Part shown: piece after piece, positions 63,106 through 64,000 of the stretch
Position numbering within the stretch: position 1 is the stretch's first letter
Layout: the number at the start of each line of letters is the position of its first letter
Assembly: GCA_902524535.1 (NCBI GenBank)
Contig: CABZDR010000002.1
Span: 1 to 64,000 of the forward strand
DNA from: an uncultured Pelagibacteraceae bacterium
Lineage (GTDB): Bacteria > Pseudomonadota > Alphaproteobacteria > Pelagibacterales > Pelagibacteraceae
Length of the DNA stretch: 64,000 nucleotides
Reading direction: 5' to 3'
Notes under the pieces: generated by a model
What the model was told of the DNA's origin: nothing
Database searches by the model: none
Seen by the model: the letters and a program-made list of their open reading frames with translations, nothing else
Program-made: the position numbers and the translations under genes

Positions 63106-63160
63106 TGGTGCCCTCGGCCAGACTCGAACTGGCACTCCGCAAGCGGCAAGGATTTTAAGT
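63106..63160 (-). repeat. tRNA-Leu (UAA-type) 3'-half fragment (att-like)
   Basis: Minus strand: CTTAAAATCCTTGCCGCTTGCGGAGTGCCAGTTCGAGTCTGGCCGAGGGCACCA. No matching 5' acceptor (GCCCTCG) upstream. First 32 nt of the + strand match 63969-64000 exactly. Confidence 0.9.
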
Positions 63161-63218
63161 CTACTCCCATAGTTGTTAAGCCAGTCATATCAAGTCTTTT
63201 AATTTTTTGTTTTTTTTC

Positions 63219-63246
63219 AATGCACACAAATGCACTATAAATGCAC
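63219..63246. repeat. Three AATGCAC repeats at 10 and 11 bp spacing (candidate integrase arm-type sites)
   Basis: AATGCAC at 63219-63225, 63229-63235, 63240-63246, on the cassette side of the tRNA-Leu fragment. Confidence 0.55.
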
Positions 63247-63252
63247 ATAATA

Positions 63253-63960
63253 TTATTTCCATTTCTGAATAAATGTTATTTGACCATTATTATACTCATT
63301 TTCACATTTAAGATGCATTTTATTGTACTTTTTTAATTCAAGTTTCTCCTTAATAGACATATTTGAAAAAAATAGAGCTTTTGACTTGTCTGTAGCTGTC
63401 AAACGAGCTGTTAAATTTTTTAATTCCCATTCCATATGTTCATCAATTTGTTTATTAATTTTTATTAGTTCTACAGACTTAATATCTTTGGATGCCTCTT
63501 GGAATAACTTACCCTTATCAGATGAATATGAGGGATATGCTTTATAAATTGTATCAAAATAATCTGAAGTTTCTTTTGCTTTTGCTAATTTTTCATCTGC
63601 TTTTTTTTCAAAGTCAGAAATCTTTTGAATATAAAAATCACTAGTTTTACTCAATACATAATTATAATAGTTGTTATATAGAGTTTCTCTTTTTTTTATA
63701 ATTTCATCTCTATTTTCAATCCAATTAATTGGCCACTTTTTTAAATATTCTTTTATATATTTGTCATTAATTTTTGGGTAGATAGGTGACTCTATGCTTT
63801 CCCATTGTGGAATTTTTGCATGACTCCAACGATTGTGGCTTTCTTCAAATTTTAAATCAGCACAATTGGATAAAGCTTTGCTAGCATCTTTAAAAGAGGC
63901 TCCATAAACTTTTGAAATAGTTAAATAAAAGAAAAATAAAAAAATAAATAATTTTTTCAT
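63253..63960 (-). CDS. Secreted protein of unknown family
   Basis: Signal MKKLFIFLFFFYLTISKVYGASF; mature part charged and helix-prone with two spaced Cys; no family recognised. Confidence 0.75.
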   Translation of the reverse strand: MKKLFIFLFFFYLTISKVYGASFKDASKALSNCADLKFEESHNRWSHAKIPQWESIESPIYPKINDKYIKEYLKKWPINWIENRDEIIKKRETLYNNYYNYVLSKTSDFYIQKISDFEKKADEKLAKAKETSDYFDTIYKAYPSYSSDKGKLFQEASKDIKSVELIKINKQIDEHMEWELKNLTARLTATDKSKALFFSNMSIKEKLELKKYNKMHLKCENEYNNGQITFIQKWK

Positions 63961-63968
63961 TACAAGTT

Positions 63969-64000
63969 TGGTGCCCTCGGCCAGACTCGAACTGGCACTC
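63969..64000 (-). tRNA. 3' end of tRNA-Leu, truncated by window end
   Basis: Minus strand GAGTGCCAGTTCGAGTCTGGCCGAGGGCACCA, identical to 63106-63137. Confidence 0.8.

Follow-up and report, generated by a model that had tools for sequence, protein, structure and literature searches.

A split tRNA-Leu(UAA) gene in a SAR11 genome and a putative 1,300-bp element that carries an intron-bearing replacement tRNA

The window analysed here is a stretch of 64,000 nucleotides (nt) that forms the start of contig C2 (CABZDR010000002.1) in the assembly of an uncultured Pelagibacteraceae bacterium (GCA_902524535.1; 1.11 Mb, 88% complete), and the subject of this study is the tRNA-Leu(UAA) locus at its end. 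Its gene content and relatives place the bacterium in SAR11, which is among the most abundant groups of bacteria in the ocean. Sequence past position 64000 was taken from the same contig (stretch L003, 61001–81000), where the numbering of the window continues. An earlier note, made from the window alone, had described 63106–63137 and 63969–64000 as identical over 32 nt at an offset of 863, with one gene for a secreted protein of unknown family between the two copies. The identity is exact, and with the contig beyond 64000 it extends to 51 nt, the whole 3' exon of a tRNA-Leu(UAA) gene (63969–64019). An exact tRNA repeat of this length is far beyond chance expectation. Read 5' to 3' on the minus strand, the locus consists of a tRNA-Leu 5' half (piece a), approx. 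0.2 kb of further sequence, a complete tRNA-Leu (piece b), a gene for a protein of 235 amino acids (aa) and a tRNA-Leu 3' half (piece c). Pieces a and c together rebuild an intronless tRNA-Leu and overlap by exactly 9 bases, GACTTAAAA, in the following called the core. The features are:

64491–64453, minus strand: piece a, 5' half of the native tRNA-Leu(UAA) gene that was split, with the core at 64453–64461 and the native promoter ahead of it (exact match and comparison of upstream sequences)
64319–64334, minus strand: putative right arm-type sites, between the 5' exon of piece b and piece a
64245–63969, minus strand: piece b, the complete tRNA-Leu(UAA) regarded as the replacement (ARAGORN with introns permitted, exact matches)
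64211–64245, minus strand: 5' exon of piece b (ARAGORN with introns permitted)
64020–64210, minus strand: group I intron of piece b, 191 nt (Rfam RF00028)
63969–64019, minus strand: 3' exon of piece b (ARAGORN with introns permitted); the window ends inside it, at 64000
63253–63960, minus strand: cargo gene, 235 aa, with a signal-peptide-like N-terminus (open reading frame, ORF)
63221–63246, minus strand: left arm-type sites GTGCATTTATAGTGCATTTGTGTGCA at a distance of 85 base pairs (bp) from the core, putatively bound by an integrase
63153–63161, minus strand: the core GACTTAAAA in piece c, where the 56-nt match to the spliced tRNA begins
63106–63161, minus strand: piece c, 3' half of the native tRNA-Leu(UAA) gene that was split; its 56 nt match the spliced tRNA-Leu exactly

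The left copy had been taken for a remnant without a 5' half, and piece c, which matches the spliced tRNA only from the core onwards, bears this out. The right copy had been expected to continue as a complete tRNA-Leu, which it does, and it is additionally split at the anticodon by a group I intron; ARAGORN reported piece b solely when introns were permitted. A partial tRNA beyond the window had been held to speak against a cassette ending in an intact tRNA-Leu. Such a partial copy is present (the 5' half at 64453–64491), and the intact, intron-bearing gene is found there as well.

Piece a and piece c are each incomplete, and neither outer junction restores a tRNA, because only about 9 bp are shared. 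The distance from core to core is 1,300 bp. The 45 nt upstream of piece a matched the tRNA-Leu upstream sequences of relatives at up to 45 of 45 positions, whereas the 45 nt upstream of piece b matched native tRNA-Leu upstreams at 19 of 45 at most, which is the random level. We therefore concluded that piece a is the original 5' end of the gene and piece b the incomer. Besides piece b, no second intact tRNA-Leu(UAA) was found in this assembly, which is 88% complete.

The locus had previously been described as a second cassette of the same design as one at tRNA-Thr in the same window, and here the description did not hold. The tRNA-Thr cassette (52123–54487) is a plain 3'-half duplication, with an intact tRNA-Thr at 52123–52198, a 3' fragment at 54432–54487 (93% identical) and a 700-aa autotransporter with a beta-propeller-like part as cargo, whereas at tRNA-Leu the original gene is split in two, and the complete copy is preceded by foreign DNA and interrupted by a group I intron. 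For tRNA-Leu, a mere duplication of the 3' half was dismissed, as the outer 5' half was found with its native promoter.

The intron of piece b matched the Rfam group I model RF00028 over its full length at 53.2 bits (cut-off 50); a match to HPnc0260 was rejected, since it was under its own cut-off and overlapped the tRNA. The intron lies between U and AA of the tRNA-Leu anticodon and thereby interrupts the core, which in piece b reads GACTT-intron-AAAA. It aligns with the tRNA-Leu introns of Agrobacterium phage Atu_ph07 and of a 735-kb phage (LR756501), which share the same fold, and among four introns compensated changes were seen in 31 of the 73 consensus pairs, tRNA arms included. From the conserved core and the covarying helices of these four introns we predict that the intron is likely to be self-splicing. 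Among relatives it was detected in 1 of 99 family genomes by Rfam, and by DNA comparison in 2 of 399 genus and 2 of 186 order genomes, counts that include the present genome and come from overlapping draws. Three SAR11 carriers are known to us from these searches, namely this genome (G000), G265 and G614, and two of the three show the core-splitting pattern. A side observation concerns the phage HTVC120P (L087, 801–953), in which a group I intron-like sequence lies between two ORFs that are both annotated as capsid protein; its capsid gene is probably intron-split.

To the left of the core at piece c, three GTGCA words are spaced 10–11 bp apart. In 1.31 Mb of sequence scanned this triple occurred at four sites, each 84–96 bp left of the same core: at this locus, in genome G012, in a prophage of the sister genome G265 and in the marine phage KT997847. 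As the motif was derived from these same sites, its absence elsewhere is the informative part. Matches of a 98-nt arm query outside G012 and G157 were mostly A/T-rich stretches of 20–45 nt and were not counted. To the right of the core at piece a, a TGCAC pair lies at +119, compared with +122 in KT997847, and this pair was absent at 26 other 5'-half ends. The ends of the element thus match the attachment sites of KT997847 and of the G265 prophage. Core and arm sites common to all three make helper-dependent transfer a candidate process.

Both KT997847 and the G265 prophage have their own tyrosine integrase. The phage attachment site (attP) of KT997847 lies between its integrase and RNA polymerase genes and has no tRNA half; the phage carries its own tRNA-Leu(UAA), intronless and with a changed anticodon stem, beside its DNA polymerase gene. 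The G265 prophage has an integrase and a terminase, and the integrase abuts a tRNA-Leu 3' half. This T7-like prophage in a SAR11 genome is undescribed; it sits in tRNA-Leu(UAA) on contig C27 (L081, from 6206 to the contig end), with the integrase gene at 6309–7358 and the terminase gene at 11964–13628. On a short contig of the same assembly an intron-bearing tRNA-Leu stands beside a T7-like DNA polymerase gene, and this contig presumably belongs to the same prophage. With core, arms and an intron-bearing tRNA as in G265 and KT997847, the 1,300 bp could be what is left of a G265-type prophage that split the tRNA gene and lost nearly all its genes except the replacement tRNA, which selection then kept. 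We consider this improbable. The tRNA of KT997847 and that of G265 are read in the opposite direction to the phage DNA polymerase gene, and by the gene order of KT997847 such a tRNA should, in a prophage, run opposite to the split tRNA; here both run in the same direction, so that an inversion would also be needed, and the cargo gene has no match to a phage family. No integrase or phage gene was found in the 1,300-bp element and no tyrosine recombinase in this assembly.

In relatives, tRNA-Leu(UAA) is a wider cassette hotspot, in line with the earlier suggestion that such cassettes recur. A match to tRNA-Leu(UAA) was found in 95 of 118 relatives, and approx. 22 of the 95 also have near-exact extra 5' halves of 38–44 nt. 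At the mapped loci, partly picked for having tRNA fragments, these halves bound units of one or few genes upstream of the intact tRNA, mostly 1.2–7 kb and in one case 15 kb long. No integrase was detected in 38 loci with a profile that recovered 9 of 9 control integrases. Cassettes of the 3'-half type occur in G157, G012 and G083, with the same left-arm style and other cargo (a NOV_C/DUF3427 protein; small lipoprotein-like ORFs). The pelagiphages HTVC105P and HTVC109P have a tRNA-Leu(UAA) 5' half just after the integrase gene, as T7-like cyanophages likewise carry a tRNA half after theirs (PMC8776855); phage integrases for the tRNA-Leu(UAA) site therefore exist. Two further loci were observed: in G035 (L066, 463–15697) a 15-kb insert with many small ORFs and no detected integrase lies between two tRNA-Leu 5' halves, and in G012 (L077, 7921–9453) two complete, diverged tRNA-Leu(UAA) genes are separated by approx. 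1.4 kb, in which a 3' half lies.

Given these classical 3'-half cassettes and the common 5'-half cassettes, the locus could also have arisen by several events: a 3'-half cassette with cargo and left arms would have settled downstream of the tRNA, an inserted phage or cassette would later have decayed to the 5' half and right arms upstream, and the intron would have come with phage DNA or separately. We regard this as unlikely, although less so than a prophage remnant. The right arms are of the TGCAC type, unlike those 26 other 5'-half ends, and are placed as in KT997847. Moreover, the complete copy lacks a native promoter; where an intact tRNA stands next to a 5'-half cassette, by contrast, its upstream sequence has stayed native-like.

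We favour, as the simplest interpretation and at a probability of about 0.6, an integrase-less element of 1,300 bp that inserted at GACTTAAAA, broke the host tRNA-Leu gene and supplies a replacement tRNA together with one secreted protein. The geometry, the core, the native promoter at the outer 5' half, the arm sites, the intron family and the absence of an integrase were all read from the DNA; that there was a single insertion is an inference. Site-specific recombination would have taken place at the core, within the anticodon loop of a chromosomal tRNA-Leu(UAA) gene that had no intron; the native promoter and 5' half would have remained on one side (64453–64491) and the 3' half of the native gene on the opposite side (63106–63161). 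The element would have brought the gene for the predicted secreted protein and a complete tRNA-Leu(UAA) along with upstream DNA of its own, and a T7-like temperate phage like KT997847 or the G265 prophage, with the same core and arm sites, would have provided the recombinase in trans. Splicing would restore the tRNA, and the replacement gene would probably no longer be a target of the recombinase because the intron interrupts its core.

Several observations weigh against this interpretation. A closely matching second copy of the element was not found; an intact tRNA-Leu may lie elsewhere, as the assembly is 88% complete; and the junction of the tRNA 3' end and the cargo resembles the classical 3'-half cassettes of G157 and G012, which fits a two-step origin. 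In G614 an intron-bearing tRNA-Leu(UAA) stands at the native locus next to nadK, without tRNA halves or a cassette (L128, 10811–11088, reverse strand; no cassette upstream), and the intron is therefore not tied to the element. G614 may represent the end state after recombination between the a/b and b/c repeats had dropped the element, or may have gained the intron independently. Downstream of nadK, G614 has a row of approx. ten paralogous ORFs of 150–195 aa.

It is plausible that the intron shields the replacement tRNA from the recombinase. The split core is consistent with such protection, and the intronless tRNA of KT997847 has a changed anticodon stem instead, possibly another way of not being a target. 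The giant phages, in turn, carry the intron without such a context, and G614 has it in a native gene. The intron could with about equal chance be a mere passenger without any protective role that often occurs in the tRNA-Leu(UAA) of phages or hosts, as its presence in G614 without any cassette, in Atu_ph07 and in the 735-kb phage, and its lack in the replacement tRNA of KT997847 would suggest. It is rare in SAR11 (2/399 genus genomes), yet two of three SAR11 carriers show the core-splitting pattern, and the altered stem in KT997847 also argues against a passenger. More tentatively, and with the odds against it, a minimal satellite may persist in an essential tRNA gene by carrying a replacement tRNA, and the self-splicing intron of this tRNA may hide it from the recombinase; the intron would then act as an attachment-site immunity device that also bars further tRNA-Leu(UAA) elements from the locus, and what G614 has as a solitary intron would be its domesticated remainder.

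The element works like the tRNA-dependent lysogeny of actinobacteriophages, which was shown experimentally in mycobacteriophages (Guerrero-Bustamante and Hatfull 2024, PMC10865867). In both, a short core (approx. 10 bp there, 9 bp here) lies inside a tRNA gene that is not rebuilt, a replacement tRNA of the same isotype is carried on the element, and arm-type sites flank the core. It differs in its 1.3-kb size without integrase or phage genes, in the intron of the replacement tRNA and in its alphaproteobacterial SAR11 host. We do not file it as a member because an integrase of the phage's own is a defining feature of that system and none was found here. Known SAR11 phages that integrate at tRNA-Leu include HTVC011P, HTVC025P and uv-Fonsiphage-EPL, and phages of the SAR11 group that encode a tRNA-Leu(TAG) themselves have been described (PMC6811365). 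Together with HTVC105P and HTVC109P these are T7-like temperate phages, some with a complete tRNA-Leu of their own, but HTVC011P and HTVC025P differ from the present case in having an intronless, full tRNA-Leu(TAG) right after the integrase gene, and HTVC105P and HTVC109P in having the 5' half of tRNA-Leu(UAA) there. The intron resembles other group I introns of tRNA-Leu(UAA) in its place in the anticodon and, as for Atu_ph07 and LR756501, in its fold; unlike them, it resides in a SAR11 genome, where a mobile element carries it within a replacement tRNA. Tycheposons are likewise cargo islands of streamlined marine bacteria that are linked to a tRNA gene, but they are described as 4–200 kb long and as having a tyrosine recombinase (PMC10872708), whereas none was found in this 1.3-kb element. 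Like phage satellites the element is small, lacks an integrase and has attachment-site arms in common with phages that infect the same hosts; unlike them, it has no visible packaging or interference genes.

A search of open-access papers found no earlier description of an intron in a replacement tRNA of this kind or in a SAR11 tRNA-Leu; new here are the integrase-less mini-element, the intron in the replacement tRNA and the SAR11 host. How widely tRNA-dependent integration is spread was left open in PMC10865867, and if our interpretation is true, it extends from actinobacterial phages to SAR11 and to 1.3-kb elements with one cargo gene. Randau and Soll (cited in PMC4390854) proposed that an interruption protects tRNA genes against mobile elements, and the locus would also provide a case in which this could be tested in a bacterium. 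It further illustrates how individual genes, in part for exported proteins, are exchanged at a single tRNA in streamlined genomes.

The cargo is, as stated before, a single ORF with a signal-peptide-like N-terminus. The 235-aa protein had no match in Pfam, PHROGs or PADLOC, its AlphaFold model was weak (mean predicted local distance difference test score, pLDDT, 59.7), and the best hit of a PDB fold search had an E value of 0.65. A search of 5.8 billion proteins gave five relatives, and a scan of genome contigs gave none. The gene is rare, and in line with the earlier note it is not fixed: it matched in 3 of 197 family genomes (the two besides this genome weakly) and in 3 of 399 genus genomes, this one included, the others being G342, with a distant copy, and G217, with a fragment of 30 aa. 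Most likely it encodes a small exported helical protein that is exchanged between strains. No tRNA-Leu fragment was found near the G342 relative (L104, 6400–7300), which adjoins repeats resembling the arm repeats of 5'-half cassettes. On the other side of the locus, a gene for a 714-aa autotransporter-like protein directly adjoins the tRNA-Leu 5' half (L003, 3632–5776; contig 64632–66776); the protein resembles that of the tRNA-Thr cassette in design, and a relative of it also lies near tRNA-Leu in G114.
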